Positions 6,892 through 29,105 of a DNA stretch of 37,316 nucleotides are shown one piece after another. This DNA comes from a virus. The notes beneath the pieces were generated by a model. The model was not told where the DNA came from, ran no database searches, and worked only from the letters and a program-made list of their open reading frames with translations. The DNA lies in IMG/VR virus record IMGVR_UViG_3300025108_000160, positions 1 through 37,316 of that record, one strand, 5' to 3'. Made by a program: the position numbers and the translations under genes. Each line of letters begins with the position of its first letter. The stretch's first letter is position 1.

Positions 6892-7019
6892 AGGCGCAAC
6901 GCCTGTTCGTAAATCCAACGAGCTTGCCAGTCTTGAGCGTGGTAACGGGTCATTCCGTTGCACGTAATTTCCCAGACCCATTGGCCATTTTTTGAGACGC
7001 GTTTGAGAGTCGGTTCCAT
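6870..7019 (-). CDS. 49-aa small conserved-looking protein
   Basis: ATG 7019 to TGA 6870 encodes MEPTLKRVSKNGQWVWEI, then CNGMTRYHAQDWQARW and IYEQALRLYS. The regular protein-like composition, with several Trp and amphipathic segments, supports a gene. GAAGAG just upstream is a possible ribosome-binding site. It is the last gene of the minus-strand recombination module and converges on the plus-strand gene ending at 6891. Function unknown. Confidence 0.65.
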   Translation of the reverse strand: MEPTLKRVSKNGQWVWEITCNGMTRYHAQDWQARWIYEQALRLYSKQAS

Positions 7020-7166
7020 CTCTTCAAGTTAGATCGAAGAGCGGGGACTTACACGAAGCGGGCATAAGGTCATTGGCATACCTCACCAGCCCTTTCGGAC
7101 GATCCCTCGGCCCAGCGCGATGGTGGGTTCCCGACTTCACTACTGGTCCGCTTGATGCCCCAAGCA

Positions 7167-7458: not shown

Positions 7459-7653
7459 TTACTTACCTGTGAAAAAACGAGAGATGATGATTTTGAGGGC
7501 TTGATTAGCGTTATAATCGCGCTGCCTCATAAAGTCGCGAAGCTTGTCGCCAAGGCTTTCGTCGAGACGAACTTGAAACAAGTTGTGAACACGTTTGTCG
7601 TCTTGAATAGCCTGTAGTTCAGAGCGAGTTTTTCGCTTGTTGTCTTCAGGCAT
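7459..7653 (-). CDS. Ribbon-helix-helix-like small protein
   Basis: From ATG 7653 the product is 64 aa: a basic N-terminus, then NLFQVRLDESLGDKLRDFM (strand-helix) and ANQALKIIISRFF (second helix), the pattern of Arc/CopG-type DNA-binding dimers. It could repress this operon or act as an accessory recombination factor. The ATG overlaps the stop of the annealing-protein gene by 8 bp, so it is coupled. A TTG at 7662 is an alternative start. Confidence 0.75.
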   Translation of the reverse strand: MPEDNKRKTRSELQAIQDDKRVHNLFQVRLDESLGDKLRDFMRQRDYNANQALKIIISRFFTGK

Positions 7654-8347
7654 TGACGGCAAACTTGATTAGATTGGCATTCATCCAGTCTTGGTGTTTT
7701 TTGCTCGTAAGAGCAGGAGCTACTTTAGCATCAGGTTTTAGATTAAAGTCCCGTCGAAAGCTTTCACAAAAGGACGCAAGGCCCTCCGGCGTTAGCTCTT
7801 TAATCAGGCCAAGACAGAGATTGCGATCGTTTTCAGAAAGAGGCTGATTGCCATCAACTACGCCCTGAATTTTTGCGGCAGGTTTGGCGGTTGGCGTTGG
7901 TTCTCCCCGGTGAGGGTTCTCAACTTCTTCGCGTGCCCATAACTGCCAAGCAAGGCCAAACTGCGCAGCGGCTGCGGTGCATAAGCATCTTCTATGAGAG
8001 TCCGTAAGGTCTCGTGCGCTGACTTTTTCGTAGGCAACCGCATTGTTGCGGTTGTCCATAATCGCTTGAGGGAAGTCAGGCGTTCGTTCACCATTAGGGC
8101 CGGTAAAATAGCCAACAACGTAAGCCGTGCCGTTTGGAGCTTTCCAGGCATGACTAGAGTCAACGTAATGAGCAAGGCAGAACTGCCAGCCTGGAGCGTG
8201 TTCATGCAACAGGTGCATAGTGCGGCACCAATTGACATAATCAGCCTTGTAATTGCCTGTTCCTTTTTGGCTTACGTCGTCGGTTGTGATGACGTTGCCA
8301 AGATTAGGAAAGGGCTGTAACGGTGATGATGGCGCAGGGTTGTTCAT
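7646..8347 (-). CDS. Sak3/DUF1071-like single-strand annealing protein
   Basis: From ATG 8347 the product is 233 aa. The central region has ADYVNWCRTMHLLHEHAPGW, an AIMDNRNNAV segment and then DSHRRCLCTAAAAQFGLAWQLWAREE, the pattern I associate with DUF1071 (Sak3-type) annealing proteins. These bind single-stranded DNA and anneal or recombine it, usually with a nuclease and a Holliday-junction resolvase, both present in this module. The C-terminal 80 residues are a separate helical part. ATG 8374 is an alternative start with a 71-bp overlap. Confidence 0.8.
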   Translation of the reverse strand: MNNPAPSSPLQPFPNLGNVITTDDVSQKGTGNYKADYVNWCRTMHLLHEHAPGWQFCLAHYVDSSHAWKAPNGTAYVVGYFTGPNGERTPDFPQAIMDNRNNAVAYEKVSARDLTDSHRRCLCTAAAAQFGLAWQLWAREEVENPHRGEPTPTAKPAAKIQGVVDGNQPLSENDRNLCLGLIKELTPEGLASFCESFRRDFNLKPDAKVAPALTSKKHQDWMNANLIKFAVNA

Positions 8348-8789
8348 TTTCGAGAGTGAAACGTCGGTGGGCATAAAGGCTTACAAATTGAGAATCGTCA
8401 TTGACAACGTTTGCAGTGTCGAGACTGTCAAATACAGCACGGCAAAGCTTGTCTAGGTCTCCAATCCTTTTAGAGCAGTGGGTAGGGGCTGATGCTTTTA
8501 AGCTGCCGTTTTTATTGAAATGTGATTTTGGGCGATCAAAAACGAAAGCAATGGAGGCAGACATCGGCTTGTCTACTATGGCATACCACCCATCAGGCAG
8601 TGACTCCTTTGCGGCTAAAGCAACAGTTTGCCGCCATGGCTTACAGCGTTTTGAAGACTCCAAAAGGATGCCTCTGCCAACGTGTCGCTTGCTGCCCTGT
8701 GGGGCTGGCTTGCCAAACACTACAAAGGTGAAACTGTTAATGAATTTGCCCCCAATTGCTTGGCCGTGGTTTTTGCTCGCGGAGAGCAA
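8304..8789 (-). CDS. rusA: RusA-like Holliday junction resolvase
   Basis: The frame (161 aa) begins with TTG at 8789 and reaches the RusA domain at FTFVVFGKPAPQGSKRHVG. It contains the acidic signature GDLDKLCRAVFDSL and VVNDDSQF, matching the metal-binding aspartates of RusA. The enzyme cuts four-way junctions formed during recombination or replication. No ATG exists before the first beta-strand, so TTG is the best start. It overlaps the upstream gene by 53 bp and the downstream gene by 44 bp. Confidence 0.86.
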   Translation of the reverse strand: MLSASKNHGQAIGGKFINSFTFVVFGKPAPQGSKRHVGRGILLESSKRCKPWRQTVALAAKESLPDGWYAIVDKPMSASIAFVFDRPKSHFNKNGSLKASAPTHCSKRIGDLDKLCRAVFDSLDTANVVNDDSQFVSLYAHRRFTLENEQPCAIITVTALS

Positions 8790-9048: not shown

Positions 9049-9526
9049 CGTTTTTTGTCTCCTCGTAAATATTGCTTTTTAAGTTGTGGCTGTGACCCAT
9101 TGCTTCAATAACTCTCATGTTTGGCTCGCAGTCTTTGCCAAGCCCAATCGTGTCAAGGTAATCATTGTTTCCAAGAGGTATTGGGGAAAATTGATCATGC
9201 GACCAAGAGTCATGGTTTATTGGAAACAAGTCATCACTGCCAGAGGTTACATCGCCTTCAAAAGCAACATATCCTTGACCAGCTTCGCCAACAAAGTCAC
9301 TAGGGTCTGCCATCAAAGAAGGAGAGCCCCATTCCCAGTCTTGAAACTTATTGTCTTTGGTTTCAAGAAAGTCTTCAACGTTTTCTCCAAGCTCATCATC
9401 GTCGTCGAAGCCTGCTTGCAGGTTGTACTCATGAAATTTTTCTTTACTGACAACAATCTCGTCAATGACGACCTTGTATCTAAGAATAGTGACGAGAGAT
9501 TCTTGATCTGGAAAGTAAGAAGTCAC
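9035..9526 (-). CDS. Acidic hypothetical protein
   Basis: GTG 9526 overlaps the upstream TGA (GTGA) and gives 163 aa. It opens MTSYFPDQESLVTILRYKVVIDEIVV, followed by a strongly acidic middle (GFDDDDELGENVEDFLE) and a long polar, Asp/Ser/Gly-rich region. A TTG at 9565 would add 13 residues inside the upstream gene. The acidity recalls DNA-mimic or disordered partner proteins, but there is no motif to support a function. Confidence 0.75.
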   Translation of the reverse strand: MTSYFPDQESLVTILRYKVVIDEIVVSKEKFHEYNLQAGFDDDDELGENVEDFLETKDNKFQDWEWGSPSLMADPSDFVGEAGQGYVAFEGDVTSGSDDLFPINHDSWSHDQFSPIPLGNNDYLDTIGLGKDCEPNMRVIEAMGHSHNLKSNIYEETKNDDRS

Positions 9527-9759
9527 TTGAGAGCCTCGCAAGCTTTTTGAATGCCAGCGTTGCAATCGCGTTGAGTCATCTGGTCAAGAGTTGATGTCAT
9601 GCAATACCAGGCAGCGCCTGACAGCAGAGCAGCAAAGATGACACTGACGACAGGAGCCGAAATGCTTGATTGGCGAAACTTTTTGCGGTTGATCGGTGTT
9701 GGCTGCTTAATGCCATGGGGGAAAAGCAAATGGACGCTTGAGGAACGGTTGGAAGTCAT
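9523..9759 (-). CDS. Small single-pass membrane protein
   Basis: The 78-aa protein has a basic N-terminus (to residue about 30), one membrane segment (APVVSVIFAALLSGAAWYC, about 35-53) and a periplasm-like tail with two Cys (DCNAGIQKACEALK) that could form a disulfide. It is the first gene after the promoter at 9797-9825, with a 5' hairpin in its leader. Function unknown. Confidence 0.78.
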   Translation of the reverse strand: MTSNRSSSVHLLFPHGIKQPTPINRKKFRQSSISAPVVSVIFAALLSGAAWYCMTSTLDQMTQRDCNAGIQKACEALK

Positions 9760-9773
9760 TTTAGTTAAGTGGT

Positions 9774-9788
9774 GAGCGATCTCCGCTC
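9774..9788 (-). promoter_or_regulatory. 5'-terminal leader hairpin
   Basis: On the minus strand GAGCG pairs with CGCTC around the loop GAGAT (9788 to 9774). It begins about 9 nt after the -10 box, so it would lie at the very 5' end of the transcript. Hairpins with GAGA loops follow the promoters at 13272 and 14274 in the same way. Confidence 0.55.
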
Positions 9789-9796
9789 TTGAGAGA

Positions 9797-9825
9797 ATAA
9801 TGGCATACCATTAATTGATTGTCAA
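9797..9825 (-). promoter_or_regulatory. Sigma70-like promoter of the minus-strand operon
   Basis: On the minus strand a perfect -35 TTGACA (9825-9820) is followed by a 17-nt spacer and -10 CATTAT (9802-9797, 4 of 6). The -35 box overlaps the stop codon of the 40-aa gene. The palindrome at 9798-9813 covers the -10 and most of the spacer. Confidence 0.75.
9798..9813. promoter_or_regulatory. Palindromic operator TAATGG-CATA-CCATTA
   Basis: This is a perfect 6-bp inverted repeat with a 4-bp centre, placed on the -10 box and spacer of the operon promoter, where a bound repressor would block RNA polymerase. A near copy (AATGG-TCTA-CCATT) overlaps the promoter at 14274-14302. Confidence 0.6.
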
Positions 9826-9944
9826 CGCTTCTTCTGTTTCTTCTTTGGCTTTTGGTATGGATCGGCCTTTATGGCCTCGACCGTCTCTTTGTATCCGGGC
9901 GGCTCCTCAATCTGCCCTTGCTTCAAGATTTCGGTCCAGTTCAT
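9822..9944 (-). CDS. 40-aa small protein with poly-Lys tail
   Basis: ATG 9944 follows the nuclease stop directly (TAAATG) and TGA is at 9822-9824. The product is MNWTEILKQGQIEEPPGYKE, then a helix and a basic end (QKPKKKQKKR). Tight coupling and a sensible composition support it. It may be a nucleic-acid-binding accessory of the nuclease, but this is only positional. Confidence 0.65.
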   Translation of the reverse strand: MNWTEILKQGQIEEPPGYKETVEAIKADPYQKPKKKQKKR

Positions 9945-10583
9945 TTAGAAGTCAGGTTGCAGCGCGTCAAAGCGGGTCAAGGCTCCACGCCATGCCTCAA
10001 GGCATTCGTCAGGCTCTTGCTCGATCACCTTGCATTTCTCAGGACCAGAAACCACCGTGACGCACTGACTGACGTAAAGCTTGGGCCAGTGTTGATTGAT
10101 CATGGCCAAGTAGCCACCAAGCTGCTCGGTTGCCGCCTTGCGGCTTGAAACGGCGTTTTTCCTTGAAACGGTTTTCAGGTCTCCCAAGATCAAAAAGGTT
10201 GGATCGTCCGCGTAGCTAATCAAAAAATCAAGCGTGCCGCCAATTGAATGGGAGCTGTTGCGAAGGCATAAGGAATACTCGCTAGCCATCAGGTTGACGT
10301 TCTTAAACAGATCGTCCTCAAGCAGCGTCTCAACCCACGGTGACCATTTGTCGTCATAAATCTGCGGCTCGCCTCGCAAATGCTTGTCAAGGCAGTCGTG
10401 AATGGTCTGTCCCCTGATAGCCCAGCCATCGGGGCCGTGCTTGTACTTTTCAAACCCAGCGCGTTGCTGAGGCGTGATGTCTACGCCTGTAACGGTAGAA
10501 ACGGAGTGAGCCAGCCATTCACCCTTGTAAAAGTAAAGATGGCGCTTGCTGTCAAAGGACAGTTCAGGGATTGGATCTAGCAT
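9945..10583 (-). CDS. RecB-type PD-(D/E)XK nuclease (Cas4/exonuclease-like)
   Basis: The 212-aa protein carries the full RecB-nuclease motif set: GQTIH (His62), GGTLDFLI (Asp119), ILGDLKT (Asp135, Lys137) and QLGGY (Gln154, Tyr158). Such phage enzymes resect DNA ends for recombination by an annealing protein, here the Sak3-like protein in the same module. It is the first gene of the minus-strand run and diverges from the 10642 gene. Its promoter overlaps an opposed one. Confidence 0.85.
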   Translation of the reverse strand: MLDPIPELSFDSKRHLYFYKGEWLAHSVSTVTGVDITPQQRAGFEKYKHGPDGWAIRGQTIHDCLDKHLRGEPQIYDDKWSPWVETLLEDDLFKNVNLMASEYSLCLRNSSHSIGGTLDFLISYADDPTFLILGDLKTVSRKNAVSSRKAATEQLGGYLAMINQHWPKLYVSQCVTVVSGPEKCKVIEQEPDECLEAWRGALTRFDALQPDF

Positions 10584-10589
10584 GGTTAC

Positions 10590-10618
10590 TTGCGTGCTCG
10601 GTCAATATGCACCATATT
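10590..10618 (+). promoter_or_regulatory. Candidate rightward promoter of the replication module
   Basis: TTGCGT (10590-10595), a 17-nt spacer and CATATT (10613-10618). The -10 is the right arm of the palindrome AATATG-CAC-CATATT. It would start transcription about 15 nt before the ATG at 10642. Confidence 0.5.
10604..10618. promoter_or_regulatory. Palindrome shared by opposed -10 boxes
   Basis: AATATG and CATATT are perfect 6-bp inverted arms around CAC. Each arm is the -10 of one of two opposed promoters. A regulator bound here could block both, or polymerase at one would exclude the other. Confidence 0.55.
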
Positions 10619-10632
10619 CAGACCTGAATCAA
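10604..10632 (-). promoter_or_regulatory. Candidate leftward promoter of the nuclease gene
   Basis: On the minus strand TTGATT (10632-10627), a 17-nt spacer and CATATT (10609-10604). The -10 is the left arm of the same palindrome as the rightward promoter, so the two overlap almost completely. Confidence 0.55.
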
Positions 10633-10641
10633 CCCCAGAAC

Positions 10642-10806
10642 ATGCCAGAAACAGATTTGTTCCAAGATGTCCGCGTTCAAATTGATCCGAGAGTCATTGC
10701 AGAGGTTGACCGAAAGAAGCCAATTGGCGTCTCCCGCACTGGTTGGGTAAATCTTCTTTTACAGCGTGCCATTGCCCAAGAGCCTGAGCCTTTGGCCCGT
10801 GACTGA
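10642..10806 (+). CDS. 54-aa ribbon-helix-helix-like protein
   Basis: ATG 10642 gives MPETDLFQDVRVQIDPRVIAE, a strand followed by a helix, then a Gly-containing turn and SRTGWVNLLLQRAIAQ, as in small Arc/CopG-type DNA-binding dimers. The long upstream open frame runs through the divergent promoter and is ignored. Being the first gene beyond the opposed promoters, it is a natural candidate to bind their palindrome. It overlaps the next gene (GTG 10799). Confidence 0.7.
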   Translation: MPETDLFQDVRVQIDPRVIAEVDRKKPIGVSRTGWVNLLLQRAIAQEPEPLARD

Positions 10807-11224
10807 TCTAAACCAAGAGCAACGGGCCTATGACTTGCTCCAATGGGTGCCCTATAGCTTGCCCAGCTTCTTTGACGATGACTTAGCAGTCATTGGTTAT
10901 TACACAGAGATTCAAGCTCAAAAGTCAGACGCAGCCCTCAAGGCTTGGGATGATGACCATTCTTTCGTTAGTAGTTCTGAGCTAACAGCGTTCAAAGAGC
11001 TAGAACGCCTAGGCGTCTATTCAAATTCAGATTTCTATTCCCCTTCAAAAGCAAAAGATGGAGCCTATTCCGAACAGCTCAAAACCCGCGCTCCAAGAGT
11101 CATTAACAGCTCTAGCCCTCCACGCCGAGAAAGTAATCCAAGCGGAGAGGGAACGGGACTGGATGCCTCTCATGCGAAACAAAGCTTTCGAGCTAGGCGC
11201 CCACGACGACGCACGCGATCCTGA
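10799..11224 (+). CDS. Hypothetical protein, long 3' overlap with the ATPase gene
   Basis: GTG 10799 overlaps the previous gene by 8 bp. The first ~90 residues look like a real protein (QRAYDLLQWVPYSLPSFFDDDLAVIGYY and a helical middle). The last ~55, which overlap the ATPase gene, are Ser/Arg/Pro-rich and look like an out-of-frame reading (ending RRPRRRTRS). The functional protein may stop making sense near 11058, so a lost stop or a frameshift is possible. The family is not recognised. Confidence 0.6.
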   Translation: MTDLNQEQRAYDLLQWVPYSLPSFFDDDLAVIGYYTEIQAQKSDAALKAWDDDHSFVSSSELTAFKELERLGVYSNSDFYSPSKAKDGAYSEQLKTRAPRVINSSSPPRRESNPSGEGTGLDASHAKQSFRARRPRRRTRS

Positions 11225-12668
11225 ACTCCAAGCCTATTTGGACGCAGCAGAACGCAGGCTTCACAAAGGCAAGGTTTACCGCGCAGGCGAAAAGCTCCAG
11301 GCCACCGAGTCTGTTTTCCTGCTTGACGGCATGATAAAAATGTGCGAGTCAAATGTCATCATTGGTCAGCCCAAGGTGGGCAAGAGTTCATTCTCAACGG
11401 GTTTAATCGCAGCTCTCCGCGATAAGCAACCGCAATTTCTTGGCCGTGATCTGTCGACTCCTGGTGAGCGGATGCCCGTTCTCGTTTTTGGTACTGATCA
11501 AAGCGAAGGTGATTGGCTGCATCTTCTGCATCGTGAAGAGCTTGTGGCGGAAGATCAAACGCTTAAGAACGATTCGATCGATTTCTTTTGCTCAATGGAA
11601 ACGGGCGAACAGTACAACTTCACAAAGGATGGATTACGCCGCATGAGAGAGGAGATCGAAAAGCATCAGTTTCCGCTGGTCATTATCGATTCACTCAGCT
11701 CAATGATGGAGCCGACCGGCATTGAGGAAAACACATCACGCTATGCCCAACCGATTAGATCCGCAATCAGTCAGCTGCGAAAAACCGGAGCCACGCTTTT
11801 GGTCATTCATCACTCAGTCAAAAGGCCAACGACTTGGGATTGGATCACCGAATGCAGAGGCAGCAGCTCAATCAGTTCTGTCTTCTCTTGGGGTGTCCTT
11901 ATGCGTTGGGTGGCGCAAGAGGAGGACGGTTTGGCTCGTACAGATAAACGGGTTGGATTTGCAGGCAAGGGACGAGGCGCTAACGAATCAGGCGGAGTTA
12001 TGGGCCAATACCTGCCAGAGGGCGGTTGGACCTATCTCGACCTGCTGGAGGCAGCGCAAAAGGTTGAACGAGCAGGTAGCCGCATCATGGAGCTAGGAGG
12101 CGTTCGAGCAAGCGTCTTTGATTACTTGACGATGCGAACTGCTCTAAAAGCTGACGTGTCTCCTGAGGAGGTTGCAACCGAGCTGAATAAGCAAATGGGT
12201 CACATCTCCAGGGAGTTGCGTTCGCTCAAAGCGAAGGGTTTAGCGGAGGTTGCCAGAGAGGAAGACACGGGCTCAAGACCACGGAAATTTTGGATGGCAA
12301 GCCCTGCTGCGATGGAATGGTCCCTGGGGGGCTCAGAAGTTGGATTTTCTGGATCTCTTGGATCTAATCCCATTAAATCCATTAAATCCAATAAATCTAA
12401 CTCTCAGGACAGTACAGCCGAACTACTGGCTGAACCATTAGATCCAACTCCTGCCGCAATAGATCCAAAGACTCCGGTCGAGATCTTTAGAGGCGGTTTC
12501 TGGGCTAACGGCTACGTTGTTCGAGACGGAATGAACCCGGACAAGATCACCGTTGAGAAGCTGGGCAGCCCTGCTGTCACGATCAGCAACCTTCGACTTG
12601 ATCTTGACGTTCGCCCTTGCCAAGCAGTCTCAGAGCTGGCTAAATCCCTTGGTCCTTTTGATTTCTAA
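11058..12668 (+). CDS. RecA-fold replication ATPase (RepA/AAA_25-like helicase)
   Basis: The 536-aa protein has Walker A GQPKVGKSS (103-111), Walker B LVIIDSLSS (Asp211), a LVIHHSVK segment (248-255) and RGSSSISS (267-274), the pattern of hexameric RepA-type helicases and AAA_25 ATPases. The C-terminal third has a winged-helix-like part (EVATELNKQMGHISRELRSLKAKGL) and a low-complexity linker with (I/N)KS repeats. It is the best candidate for the replicative helicase or helicase loader. No DNA polymerase or primase is visible. Its gene contains iteron-like repeats (12342-12396). Confidence 0.86.
   Translation: MEPIPNSSKPALQESLTALALHAEKVIQAERERDWMPLMRNKAFELGAHDDARDPELQAYLDAAERRLHKGKVYRAGEKLQATESVFLLDGMIKMCESNVIIGQPKVGKSSFSTGLIAALRDKQPQFLGRDLSTPGERMPVLVFGTDQSEGDWLHLLHREELVAEDQTLKNDSIDFFCSMETGEQYNFTKDGLRRMREEIEKHQFPLVIIDSLSSMMEPTGIEENTSRYAQPIRSAISQLRKTGATLLVIHHSVKRPTTWDWITECRGSSSISSVFSWGVLMRWVAQEEDGLARTDKRVGFAGKGRGANESGGVMGQYLPEGGWTYLDLLEAAQKVERAGSRIMELGGVRASVFDYLTMRTALKADVSPEEVATELNKQMGHISRELRSLKAKGLAEVAREEDTGSRPRKFWMASPAAMEWSLGGSEVGFSGSLGSNPIKSIKSNKSNSQDSTAELLAEPLDPTPAAIDPKTPVEIFRGGFWANGYVVRDGMNPDKITVEKLGSPAVTISNLRLDLDVRPCQAVSELAKSLGPFDF
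12342..12396 (+). repeat. 9-bp periodic repeats inside the ATPase gene, possible replication origin
   Basis: Three units starting GGAT (12342, 12351, 12360) are followed by CCATTAAAT (12370), CCATTAAAT (12379) and CCAATAAAT (12388). Further AGATCCAA copies lie near 12440 and 12461. The stretch is A+T-rich and codes for a flexible linker. Phage lambda has its origin as iterons inside the O initiator gene, which is the precedent for reading this as an origin. Confidence 0.45.
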
Positions 12669-12982
12669 TGTCTAAAACTCACGAACTTACCCGCGTCACT
12701 GTTCGCCTGTCAGATGAAGAGCTTGAAGCCTTAGACGCGCAAGCGCATAAACGTCGGATGCCTCGCTCAGCTTTGATCAAAGAAGCAATTGCCTCTGTTG
12801 TCAGTCCACCAACCAAGAAATCAATCAAGCCTTCCGTCCATCTGGATTCAGGCAGAAACACGATTGATCAAGCTGTTTTAGCTGTGACCAGAATGTTTCC
12901 AGACATCGCACGTCACCGCGTTGAACCGATCGTTTGTACGGTCATTTGTGCGATGGCTGCTAACAAAAAAAAGAAGGCTTGA
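12668..12982 (+). CDS. Ribbon-helix-helix (CopG-like) DNA-binding protein
   Basis: The 104-aa protein has an N-terminal RHH domain (TRVTVRLSDEELEALDAQAHKRRMPRSALIKEAI, about residues 8-42) and a C-terminal helical domain (IDQAVLAVTRMFPDIA) ending in a poly-Lys tail. It is probably a transcriptional regulator or plasmid-type partition/copy-control relative. The ATG overlaps the ATPase stop (TAATG). Confidence 0.83.
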   Translation: MSKTHELTRVTVRLSDEELEALDAQAHKRRMPRSALIKEAIASVVSPPTKKSIKPSVHLDSGRNTIDQAVLAVTRMFPDIARHRVEPIVCTVICAMAANKKKKA

Positions 12983-12995
12983 TCCTTGCTCTTAA

Positions 12996-13115
12996 ATGGC
13001 TAGGCTGGCAAAGCCAATTCAAACTTGGCTTGTCCTCCGTTGCTTGAAGTGCCAGCGGCAAGGGGTTTGGCGCGTGAGCCTTGCTCCAGCACTTCGCCTA
13101 ATTACTGAACAATGA
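12996..13115 (+). CDS. 39-aa CxxC small protein
   Basis: ATG 12996 runs to TGA 13113-13115, which overlaps the next ATG (13112, ATGA). The sequence LRCLKCQRQGVWRV carries one Cys-x2-Cys knuckle like half a zinc ribbon. It would need a second ligand pair from another subunit. The overlap and motif support it as a gene. Confidence 0.6.
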   Translation: MARLAKPIQTWLVLRCLKCQRQGVWRVSLAPALRLITEQ

Positions 13116-13297
13116 CTTCAACGACCCGCACCTTGGACGACGGCACCGTGGAAATCGTCGTTACTGACGCTGAAAGCGGCCTAACTGAGCTGGGCTGGGT
13201 GTCGTCTATGCACCTCACTGAGACCAAGATCAATCAGCTAAAAGCTGTCATCGCTCGCAAGAGCAAGTCACTTGACGGTGGTATGCCATCAAGGTAA
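13112..13297 (+). CDS. Small hypothetical protein
   Basis: The 61-aa protein is acidic in the first half (LDDGTVEIVVTDAESGL, beta-rich) and basic helical in the second (TKINQLKAVIARKSK). The last codons contain a promoter -35 box and spacer (13272-13294). The family is not recognised. Confidence 0.7.
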   Translation: MTSTTRTLDDGTVEIVVTDAESGLTELGWVSSMHLTETKINQLKAVIARKSKSLDGGMPSR

Positions 13298-13300
13298 TAT
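13272..13300 (+). promoter_or_regulatory. Sigma70-like promoter with GGTATGCC spacer
   Basis: TTGACG (13272-13277), a 17-nt spacer containing TGGTATGCCAT, and TAATAT (13295-13300). The spacer word is the same as on the minus strand of the 9798-9813 operator. It drives the 13337 gene and those after it. Confidence 0.65.
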
Positions 13301-13306
13301 CTGATT

Positions 13307-13320
13307 GCCCGGAGACGGGT
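13307..13320 (+). promoter_or_regulatory. 5'-terminal GAGA-loop hairpin
   Basis: CCCG (13308-13311) pairs with CGGG (13316-13319) around a GAGA (GNRA) tetraloop, plus a G-T outer pair. It starts about 7 nt after the -10 box, that is, at the expected transcript start. Confidence 0.55.
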
Positions 13321-13336
13321 TCACTGAGTTTTTCTA

Positions 13337-13543
13337 ATGACAACTTTCACTTGCTTAGCTGCCATTCTGTTGGCAGTCTTGACAGTCCCTGTTCTGTTGC
13401 TTTTATACGCAACAGAGTCAAGAACTGCACGCATCAAGCGTATGCGCTCTAATGGCTACACATGGAAGGCCATTGGTGCCCGCTATGGCGTCACTGAATC
13501 GACCCCACGCAAATGGCTAACTACGGCTGCGGCAAAGGCATGA
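13337..13543 (+). CDS. Membrane-anchored helix-turn-helix protein
   Basis: The 68-aa protein has one N-terminal transmembrane segment (CLAAILLAVLTVPVLLLLYA, residues 6-25), a basic linker (SRTARIKRMRSN) and a resolvase/Hin-like helix-turn-helix (TWKAIGARYGVTESTPRKWL, about 42-61). DNA binding tied to the membrane could tether phage DNA or sense envelope state; this is inference. It is the first gene after a promoter. Its stop overlaps the next ATG. Confidence 0.75.
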   Translation: MTTFTCLAAILLAVLTVPVLLLLYATESRTARIKRMRSNGYTWKAIGARYGVTESTPRKWLTTAAAKA

Positions 13544-13677
13544 ATGAAGAAAACCTGCTTGCCATGCGTCGTCGTGTTCTAGAGCTAGACGCCAACCCAG
13601 ACATCAAGCCAACAACCCTTGAGAAAGCTTTTCTTGAGGCTTACAGAGAACGCAAAAAAGGAGGCTATGGCCGTTAA
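13540..13677 (+). CDS. 45-aa helical small protein
   Basis: ATG 13540 overlaps the previous stop (ATGA) and TAA is at 13675-13677. The product MNEENLLAMRRRVLELDANP plus a second helix (LEKAFLEAYRERKK) looks like a two-helix hairpin. Its last codons carry the Shine-Dalgarno site AAGGAGG for the next gene, which it overlaps by 11 bp. Function unknown. Confidence 0.65.
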   Translation: MNEENLLAMRRRVLELDANPDIKPTTLEKAFLEAYRERKKGGYGR

Positions 13678-13933
13678 GACTCTCTACCCTCACCCACCCT
13701 GTCCAGAGTGCGGTCAGGATGAAACAAAAGCCGTAAGGACTTTCTACACACCTAATAGCAAGATCGTTAGATACAGAAAATGCAAGCTGTGCGGTAAAAC
13801 TTTTTACAGCTTGCAGTCTTGTGAAGAAGTCATCAACCCAGCTGAACACAAAGTCGTTCTTGGCAATTGGCGAACAAATGGGAGCCAGATCAAAATTGTC
13901 AAAGCTGGAACCAATCAACCTGTTGATCTCTGA
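13667..13933 (+). CDS. Zinc-ribbon protein
   Basis: ATG 13667, preceded by a strong AAAGGAGG, gives 88 aa with two Cys-x2-Cys knuckles, CPEC (12-15) and CKLC (39-42), separated by 23 residues with basic beta-strand sequence. This is a classic zinc ribbon such as in NrdR or transposase N-termini. A DNA- or RNA-binding regulator is likely. Starting earlier (13619) would add unlike sequence and is rejected. Confidence 0.8.
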   Translation: MAVKTLYPHPPCPECGQDETKAVRTFYTPNSKIVRYRKCKLCGKTFYSLQSCEEVINPAEHKVVLGNWRTNGSQIKIVKAGTNQPVDL

Positions 13934-13935
13934 TC

Positions 13936-14265
13936 ATGCTCAAGCCCAAAAGCTTTCACGTCCCTGGTGCTTTGCTCATTGAGCAGCATGTCGTTAGAGA
14001 GGGGCCAAGTCCGTACTTTGTCGCTTGGAAGCCGCACACCTCTCAGATGTTTTACGACCGCAAAGAAATGATGCGTTGGATCAAATGGCCCAAGGGAACG
14101 CCAACCCGTGAGGCCATTGACGCGTTTCTGGACGGCTTGGAGGCGCCTAAGGAGTTAGTCCCGTCGCCTCTTGACATGGAGGAGATCAAACGCAAAGGCT
14201 TTGGCCCTGAAGCTCACACCTTGGACGATTCTGACCCCAACAGTCAAACGCGAACGGTGATCTGA
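13936..14265 (+). CDS. Hypothetical protein
   Basis: The 109-aa soluble protein has HVVREGPSPYFVAWKPHTSQMFYDRKEMMRWIKWPKGTPT, a compact beta-hairpin plus helix unit, and a disordered acidic tail. The ATG is 2 bp after the zinc-ribbon stop. Its 3' end is followed within 9 bp by the next promoter. I do not recognise the family. Confidence 0.78.
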   Translation: MLKPKSFHVPGALLIEQHVVREGPSPYFVAWKPHTSQMFYDRKEMMRWIKWPKGTPTREAIDAFLDGLEAPKELVPSPLDMEEIKRKGFGPEAHTLDDSDPNSQTRTVI

Positions 14266-14273
14266 CCAGGCAC

Positions 14274-14302
14274 TTGCCAAACCTTGATCAATGGTCTACC
14301 AT
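14274..14302 (+). promoter_or_regulatory. Candidate promoter with overlapping operator
   Basis: TTGCCA (14274-14279, 5 of 6), a 17-nt spacer and TACCAT (14297-14302, 4 of 6). The palindrome at 14290-14303 covers the -10 and the spacer end. Confidence 0.55.
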
Positions 14303-14303
14303 T
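14290..14303. promoter_or_regulatory. Operator-like palindrome AATGG-TCTA-CCATT
   Basis: Perfect 5-bp arms with a 4-bp centre. The arms are the same as in the 9798-9813 site, and the position over the -10 box is the same. Confidence 0.55.
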
Positions 14304-14310
14304 AATGCAA

Positions 14311-14322
14311 GCCCGAGAGGGC
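14311..14322 (+). promoter_or_regulatory. 5'-terminal GAGA-loop hairpin
   Basis: GCCC and GGGC pair around a GAGA tetraloop, starting 9 nt after the -10 box. This is the third promoter in the window followed by such a hairpin. Confidence 0.5.
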
Positions 14323-14336
14323 ACCGCTTAAAAACA

Positions 14337-14543
14337 ATGGACTTTCACGAAAGCTCACTACTTGCTTACGAAGCTCGCCAACGCTTAGAAGACGCTCAAC
14401 CTATCCCAACCGTTGAACCCACCTTCTTTGTGATCACAGCAGCCTGGTCTGAGTGGGCACTTGACCGTGATCAACTCAAAGAGTTAACCGATGACGCCAT
14501 CCTTGATGGCCTGGCTTACACAATCGAAACCTGCCCCTTCTAA
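14337..14543 (+). CDS. Small hypothetical protein
   Basis: ATG 14337 gives 68 aa: a helical start (FHESSLLAYEARQRLEDAQP), a short strand (TFFVITAAWSEWALD) and an acidic helix. The frame is open from 14274, but that stretch holds a promoter and operator, so the later ATG is chosen. Function unknown. Confidence 0.7.
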   Translation: MDFHESSLLAYEARQRLEDAQPIPTVEPTFFVITAAWSEWALDRDQLKELTDDAILDGLAYTIETCPF

Positions 14544-14745: not shown

Positions 14746-14855
14746 TGCCGGGAAGCCCGACGCCGTATCCCCATCCGGCTGAAAGCTATACAAAACCTTG
14801 AACAGGTGACAAAGGAAAAGCAGGGCGCGTTAGTGGCGCGATCCATCTCCCGGCA
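14746..14855 (+). ncRNA. Possible structured RNA or leader element in a non-coding gap
   Basis: The gap 14741-14869 has no supportable gene. TGCCGGGA (14746-14753) and TCCCGGCA (14848-14855) are perfectly complementary and would close a ~110-nt domain holding smaller candidate stems (GCCG/CGGC, CCTT/AAGG, CGCG/CGCG). The left arm can instead form CGGG-AAG-CCCG locally, so two exclusive folds are possible. It sits 14 nt before the 14870 gene. No known riboswitch is recognised. Confidence 0.4.
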
Positions 14856-14869
14856 TCACACTTTCCAAA

Positions 14870-15040
14870 ATGAAACGCAAAAAACCTAGCTTCATCCCAG
14901 CCACATCTTTCCGAGTAACCAAGCTCAAGCCCAATGGCCCTAAAAATGGTCAGTCAACTGAGGCTTGGGAACGAGGTAAAGCCAAGGCAGACGAAAAATG
15001 GGATAAAACTCGCGAAAAGAATTTCAACAAGCTTCTCTAG
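14870..15040 (+). CDS. 56-aa basic protein
   Basis: ATG 14870 to TAG 15040 encodes MKRKKPSFIPATSFRVTKLK, then a long charged helix (EAWERGKAKADEKWDKTRE). It is strongly basic. Its stop overlaps the GTG of the next gene (TAGTG). It is probably nucleic-acid binding by composition, but the family is not recognised. Confidence 0.7.
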   Translation: MKRKKPSFIPATSFRVTKLKPNGPKNGQSTEAWERGKAKADEKWDKTREKNFNKLL

Positions 15041-28753: not shown

Positions 28754-29105
28754 CCTAATCGGGCTTCGCTACCGCTTAGGAGCTGACGGCAGCAACGGTG
28801 AGATTGACTGCATCCACCTTGTCTTCAAGGTCTTGGAACGGTGCGGTATAGACGCGCCACCGTTTAATCATGATTGGTATAGCTCAAGCAAGACAAAGGT
28901 CTGCCGTGATCTTTTGCGATGGGGTTACCGAGTGGATCAACCAACGTATGATGGGGATGTGCTCCTGATAAAGGAAGACGCTTGGATTTTCGCAGTCACA
29001 TGGCAAACCGGGATTCTCTACATCAACAGACAGCTGGGCGCAGTGACGTGGGCACCGGCATCCAGCTTTATGAAATCCCACTGCTTCCGTACGAAAAGCA
29101 GTTAA
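28737..29105 (+). CDS. NlpC/P60-like tail assembly protein, His not apparent
   Basis: ATG 28737 gives 122 aa. It has IGLRYRLGADGSNGEIDCIHLVF with the Cys nucleophile (DCIH) at about residue 28, and a later TGILYINRQLGAVTWAP typical of the family end. The usual catalytic His before the second motif is replaced by hydrophobic residues (WIFAVTW), so it may be inactive. Lambda gpK-type proteins of this fold sit at the tail tip and may open the cell wall. Confidence 0.72.
   Translation: MSDCVDLIGLRYRLGADGSNGEIDCIHLVFKVLERCGIDAPPFNHDWYSSSKTKVCRDLLRWGYRVDQPTYDGDVLLIKEDAWIFAVTWQTGILYINRQLGAVTWAPASSFMKSHCFRTKSS

Follow-up and report, generated by a model that had tools for sequence, protein, structure and literature searches.

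Three promoters in a marine cyanosiphophage contig

The window analysed here, the whole of the virus contig IMGVR_UViG_3300025108_000160 (37,316 bp), carries three promoters, termed sites a, b and c, each of which is combined with a short putative operator and with a hairpin at the 5' end of the predicted message. Site a, on the minus strand, consists of the promoter TTGACA-17-CATTAT (9797..9825), the operator TGGTATGCCA (9801..9810), which overlaps the -10 element, and the hairpin GAGCG-GAGAT-CGCTC with a pentaloop (9774..9788); the gene that follows (9523..9759, minus strand, 78 amino acids) heads a leftward operon. Site b, on the plus strand, comprises the promoter TTGACG-17-TAATAT (13272..13300), the operator TGGTATGCCA (13279..13288), located 1 bp past the -35 element, and the hairpin CCCG-GAGA-CGGG (13308..13319), and precedes a gene for 68 amino acids (13337..13543, plus strand) with a hydrophobic N-terminus and a weak HTH_23 match. 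Site c, also on the plus strand, comprises TTGCCA-17-TACCAT (14274..14302), the operator TGGTCTACCA over the -10 element (14292..14301) and the hairpin GCCC-GAGA-GGGC (14311..14322), followed by another gene for 68 amino acids (14337..14543, plus strand).

As the major head protein of the window is 82% identical to that of cyanophage KBS-S-2A (host Synechococcus WH7803), and its helicase resembles those of the Synechococcus phages S-CBS1 and S-CBS3, the window is assigned to a marine cyanosiphophage. A DNA-level search of isolated phages returned no close isolate for the window and none for a typical copy of the arrangement, and nothing relevant for the b-c region.

The promoters, palindromes and hairpins claimed in a first-pass annotation of this DNA are all present at these positions, but several of their details required revision. 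The operator had been defined as AATGG-N4-CCATT, a form found exactly at a and c only; the outer TAA/TTA arms at a differ among relatives, and we have therefore dropped this definition for the conserved core, TGGTATGCCA (TGGTCTACCA at c). The operator covers the -10 element at a and c, as claimed, whereas at b it abuts the -35 element. Likewise, GAGA forms a closed GNRA tetraloop at b and c, but at a it is only a piece of a pentaloop.

Taken singly, these elements occur at chance level. Promoter-like matches between positions 7000 and 17000 numbered 7, against 7.3 in shuffled sequences, and AATGG-N4-CCATT with at most two mismatches was found 17 times, against 17.2 in shuffles. In contrast, a scan of the window that was blind to the operator and demanded only a promoter with a GNRA-loop hairpin at about +1 returned exactly a, b and c, with 0.0 hits per shuffle. 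The combination of promoter and hairpin at the three sites is confirmed to be far beyond chance, and chance is rejected as its explanation. A look-alike of TGGTATGCCA at 8579-8588 sits within conserved coding sequence (codons W-Y-A), and was for this reason rejected as an operator.

Thirty contigs encoding the helicase served as near relatives (contigs are cited by their L numbers). Site a is kept in five contigs (L002, L003, L004, L027 and L031), with the core TGGTATGCCA fixed and the outer arms variable; in its hairpin the stem GAGCG/CGCTC is retained, while the fifth loop base may be T, C or A (GAGAT, GAGAC, GAGAA), and L003 and L031 have GAGCG-CAAAGC-CGCTC in place of the GAGA loop. Site c is kept in nine contigs with the operator TGGTCTACCA, and its stem in L002 shows a compensatory change (GCCA-GAGA-TGGC), one C-G pair having become A-T by alteration of both sides. 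Directly behind hairpin c, L002, L014, L037 and L039 have different small genes, and the extra genes in L002 and L014 end in a terminator. The site b cassette and its gene are found only in the window and L002, and are missing at this place in L003, L004, L014 and L017. The conservation in relatives on which the first-pass annotation had staked its proposal is seen at a and c, but at b is confined to the window and L002.

A composite cassette across IMG/VR

The same composite recurs in IMG/VR contigs: a sigma-70 promoter, an operator, a GAGA (GNRA) hairpin starting at about +1 to +5, and an A/C-rich leader without a Shine-Dalgarno motif. We collected 138 distinct promoter-plus-operator sites, and the consensus of the 10-bp near-palindromic operator is TGG(T/C)AT(A/G)CCA. 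Since GAGA was part of the pattern in two of the scans behind the larger set, loop frequencies are to be read from the scan by promoter and operator alone. Among the 49 distinct sites picked in that way, 43 have a GNRA-loop hairpin (0.4% in shuffled leaders), with the loops GAGA (28), GGGA (10), GAGAT (4) and GAAA (1), and three further sites have another hairpin at the same position. When leaders were selected by GAGA only, 86 of 88 had at least three closing pairs around it, as a tetra- or pentaloop.

Stem covariation over 39 distinct 14-mers reached 0.777, compared with 0.241 in shuffles (none of 500 equalled it), and dropped when the partners were slid; all four stem pairs show changes on both sides. 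Judging from these patterns, the hairpin is an RNA structure under selection, with the loop almost fixed and the stem free, and the earlier view of the hairpins as real RNA elements is borne out. The 89 downstream open reading frames fall into 39 families, a count that is approximate because the proteins are short. A single gene family can follow several different hairpins, and the same cassette precedes different genes. This comparison shows that promoter, operator and GNRA (mostly GAGA) hairpin are passed on and reshuffled as one unit ahead of many different small genes. Such mobility would also be expected if the cassettes were simply inherited or recombined DNA repeats whose hairpin has no function of its own; however, copying alone cannot preserve pairing while the stems diverge to many unrelated sequences, and the covariation makes this explanation highly improbable.

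Arrays of two to four single-gene units, some separated by terminators, were observed in L057, L111, L130, L158, L159 and others. A gene behind the cassette has its own terminator in L014, L051, L054, L111 and L159; none was found for the cassettes listed in L057, L100 and L112 or for those of the window. Recombination and middle genes had been proposed as the targets of this control, but most targets in relatives are small accessory genes whose function is unknown, alongside the leftward recombination operon, and the comparison does not bear out the term middle genes.

A host origin of the cassette was rejected, as the strict operator-promoter pattern gave only six chance-level matches in 84,980 cellular genomes, none of them cyanobacterial. 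Rfam 15 gave no match at the window sites, and in five cassette-bearing loci nothing exceeded the gathering score; a known RNA family was rejected on this ground. The hairpin is also not a terminator: no U run (TTTT) follows the stems, the next four bases being ACAC, ACAA, ACCG and similar, and the three window hairpins are missing from the terminator list. A literature search, which was not exhaustive, found no publication describing the cassette. In some leaders the GAGA hairpin is followed, ahead of the ATG, by a second, terminator-like hairpin (L002 at 8263-8290, L111 at 6637 on the reverse strand, L045 at about 6390, L097 and L044); it is attenuator-like, carries a short U run in some cases and occurs particularly before the gene family beginning MKILSSTG.

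Operator, candidate repressor and 5' hairpin

The distance of the operator from the -35 element is bimodal across the 138 sites, at 0-3 or 7-12 bp, and the two positions indicate that it is not merely a promoter element. In 19 of the 138 promoters, where about two would be expected, a second operator lies 10-11 bp away, with the places beside the -35 and over the -10 both occupied. Such tandem operators, one helical turn apart, fit cooperative binding of a repressor along a single face of the DNA, and the operator is probably a site of repression. That one regulator is shared, as the first-pass annotation held, finds good support in the comparison: 138 distinct promoter contexts have this operator, which recurs at repressor-type positions and in tandem.

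Three small proteins of the window were considered for this role. A 64-amino-acid ribbon-helix-helix-like protein (7459..7653, minus strand; hereafter the 7459 protein) has a strand FQVRLD with an invariant Q-x-R and is encoded downstream of site a, in the leftward operon that also includes a gene for a Sak-like single-stranded DNA annealing protein (7646-8374). The other two are a second ribbon-helix-helix protein (12668..12982, plus strand), which scores above the Pfam RHH_1 cut-off, and a third small candidate DNA-binding protein (10642..10806, plus strand). The 7459 family is present in every operator-bearing record in which the leftward operon is covered, including the isolate S-CBS3, and was not found in the operator-free phages S-CBS1, KBS-S-2A, S-H1 and P-HS2. 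Across its 38 sequences Q27 and R29, alternating polar strand residues, are invariant. An AlphaFold2 model of modest quality (alignment A3) places two helices after the extended FQVRLD stretch, and its structural matches are led by ribbon-helix-helix folds, with CopG the best (Z 5.3, root-mean-square deviation 2.0, 42 residues). The ribbon-helix-helix class suggested earlier for the regulator is supported, and co-occurrence, operon place and predicted fold single out the 7459 protein as most likely the shared repressor; encoded on the same strand and downstream of site a, it would regulate the operon to which it belongs.

It is also conceivable, though on balance unlikely, that the regulator is another protein, namely that encoded at 12668 or at 10642, the putative helix-turn-helix protein of site b, or a host factor. 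The 12668 protein has the Pfam match, the 12668 and 10642 families both occur widely among these phages, and the b gene lies behind the operator in several clades. Against this, the 12668 family was not found in S-CBS3, which carries operators; the 45-kb record of L045 yielded no member of the 10642 family, yet S-CBS1, which has no operator, does encode one; and the b family was not found in L004 or L031, both of which retain the operator. This pattern of presence and absence contradicts each of the three as sole regulator.

Concerning the hairpin, when transcription is assumed to start 7 nt after the -10 element, 77 of 89 predicted messages have 0-4 unpaired bases before it, and it is predicted to form (median pair probability 0.94). 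The leaders from hairpin to ATG are 4 to 31 nt long and 75% A+C, the median unpaired probability of the start region is 0.77, and a Shine-Dalgarno-like motif was found in one of 89 leaders, compared with 8 of 36 window genes checked. It is known that hairpins at the 5' end hinder RppH, and such hairpins can make an mRNA more stable (PMC3997798). On these grounds, protection of the 5' mRNA end is the favoured role, and a function in stability is plausible.

Two other roles have to be weighed against protection. The hairpin might be a recognition tag, with a phage or host protein or RNA binding the GAGA loop and controlling translation or, as with boxB, transcription elongation, so that control of the regulon would act on DNA and on RNA alike. 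The near-fixed loop, GAGA or GGGA on a freely varying stem, leaves room for such a factor, as does the second terminator-like hairpin before the ATG in some leaders, and the loops of lambda boxB also adopt GNRA-like folds. The boxB element of nut, however, has a 5-bp stem with a pentaloop, an adjoining boxA and an arginine-rich N-like protein as its partner, whereas the cyanophage loops are mostly tetraloops. Moreover, the loop may have four or five bases, orthologous leaders in some cases carry a different hairpin in this position (CCGGG-GCGGA-CCCGG, GAGCG-CAAAGC-CGCTC), no cognate protein was identified, and in several one-gene units with their own terminator antitermination would make little sense; we consider a tag rather unlikely. 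The A/C-rich leaders with their open start regions and the near-absence of Shine-Dalgarno-like motifs could instead indicate that the hairpin is mainly a translation element replacing that signal, for example by holding the start region open. Yet the motif is missing from most of the window's other genes as well, and the distance from hairpin to ATG is variable, which leaves this role with a small likelihood.

With a probability of roughly 0.55, we propose that each site is one instance of a composite control cassette belonging to a marine cyanosiphophage group, served by a 7459-type repressor and a 5'-protecting hairpin. A phage ribbon-helix-helix protein, most likely that of 7459-7653, would occupy the operator and, from the -35 side or over the -10 element, shut out RNA polymerase; with its gene in the operon behind site a, it would limit its own synthesis. 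The message made by host RNA polymerase would begin with a stable, closed hairpin followed by an open leader rich in A and C, a combination that would slow 5'-end-dependent decay (RppH, RNase E entry) and keep the start codon free. The cassette could in this way serve as a plug-in expression unit by which new genes join one phage regulon.

Several observations weigh against this proposal. In L019, L022 and L023 the 7459 protein is present, but the promoter of the site a gene has a variant site, GGGTATACCC; the strand of the 7459 homologue reads FQCRLD in L019 and L023 rather than FQVRLD, which gives a hint, and only that, of co-evolution. The model of the 7459 protein is weak (predicted local distance difference test 69, Foldseek E above 1, VIA Z below 8), no Pfam model matches the protein, and its co-occurrence with the operator is drawn from one lineage with few complete records and partly incomplete contigs. 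In other clades, many promoters of the leftward operon carry the operator but no GNRA hairpin, and operator and hairpin are on this evidence separable. Finally, a pure stability role fails to explain why GAGA and GGGA prevail over other stable loops.

The recurrence of the cassette before dozens of unrelated genes points to a single viral protein that switches them all, with the hairpin protecting or marking their messages. Gene-expression control is little known in marine cyanosiphophages; the shared operator and hairpin allow dozens of small genes of unknown function to be placed in one putative regulon with a named candidate repressor, and the cassette would explain how accessory genes swap while staying under phage control. 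A bolder version, which we advance only speculatively, is a doubly addressed regulon, in which a self-limiting ribbon-helix-helix repressor reads the operator and a specific RNA-binding factor reads the GAGA/GGGA tag; any gene landing behind the cassette would then gain both transcriptional and post-transcriptional control. The near-fixed loop on a free stem offers a clean natural test of message protection or marking in Synechococcus, and as the isolate S-CBS3 has the same operator, tests in culture are feasible.

Known phage cassettes and other leaders

The closest known kinds are the morons and the promoter-early stem-loop (PeSL) cassettes of T4-like phages, and the cyanophage cassette would work like a moron with a promoter-stem-loop. 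PeSLs were reportedly described by Arbiol in 2010 and Comeau in 2014. They likewise combine a host-type sigma-70 promoter with a stem-loop as a repeated intergenic cassette in a gene-shuffling region before different small genes, and the stem-loop is described as a transcription terminator (PMC4503421). By that definition the cyanophage hairpin falls outside the PeSLs, since it stands at the start of the message and lacks a U run, and the shared operator is a feature not known for PeSLs. Morons are autonomous single-gene insertions and have been reported in cyanosiphovirus P-SS2 (PMC2784084). The small genes described here resemble them in having their own promoter, and sometimes a terminator, between conserved genes, with arrays in L057, L111 and L159; the gene at b is absent from L003, L004, L014 and L017, and extra genes stand behind c in L002 and L014. 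Many of the cyanophage units differ from morons in sharing one operator and one 5' hairpin, through which they would form a common regulon.

Other systems are similar in single respects. The SAS/ESAS elements of Cluster K mycobacteriophages, short conserved repeats of unknown function at the starts of non-structural genes, some with inverted repeats (PMC3203893), also mark a subset of genes. Their sequence is unrelated, however, and whereas SAS places GGGATAGGAGCCC at the translation start, the cyanophage leaders are rich in A and C and hardly ever contain a purine-rich Shine-Dalgarno-like motif, and the cassette has a recognisable promoter, operator and RNA hairpin. The stoperators of Cluster A mycobacteriophages are also sites of a single phage repressor repeated genome-wide, but they are asymmetric and act on elongation too (PMC6550527, PMC9283540), and no 5' hairpin is known for them. 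The likeness to Arc, Mnt and CopG lies in the small protein with a predicted ribbon-helix-helix fold and alternating polar strand residues, and in tandem operators one turn apart over the promoter; the 7459 family differs in lying outside the Pfam models, and its operator binding is a prediction.

Different leader structures were also observed behind the operator or near the cassettes. The isolate S-CBS3 (L087) has two operator promoters on the minus strand, at 28943 and 26142, with other 5' hairpins, such as CCGGG-GCAG-CCCGG. In the window at 14750-14857, a stretch without an Rfam match, long complementary ends (TTGCCGGGA...TCCCGGCA) precede the ATG at 14870 and point to a structured leader. 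Before homologues of the site b gene in L016 (about 6913-7070) and L007 (about 6930-7050), long GC-rich and apparently structured leaders replace the short hairpin behind the same operator.

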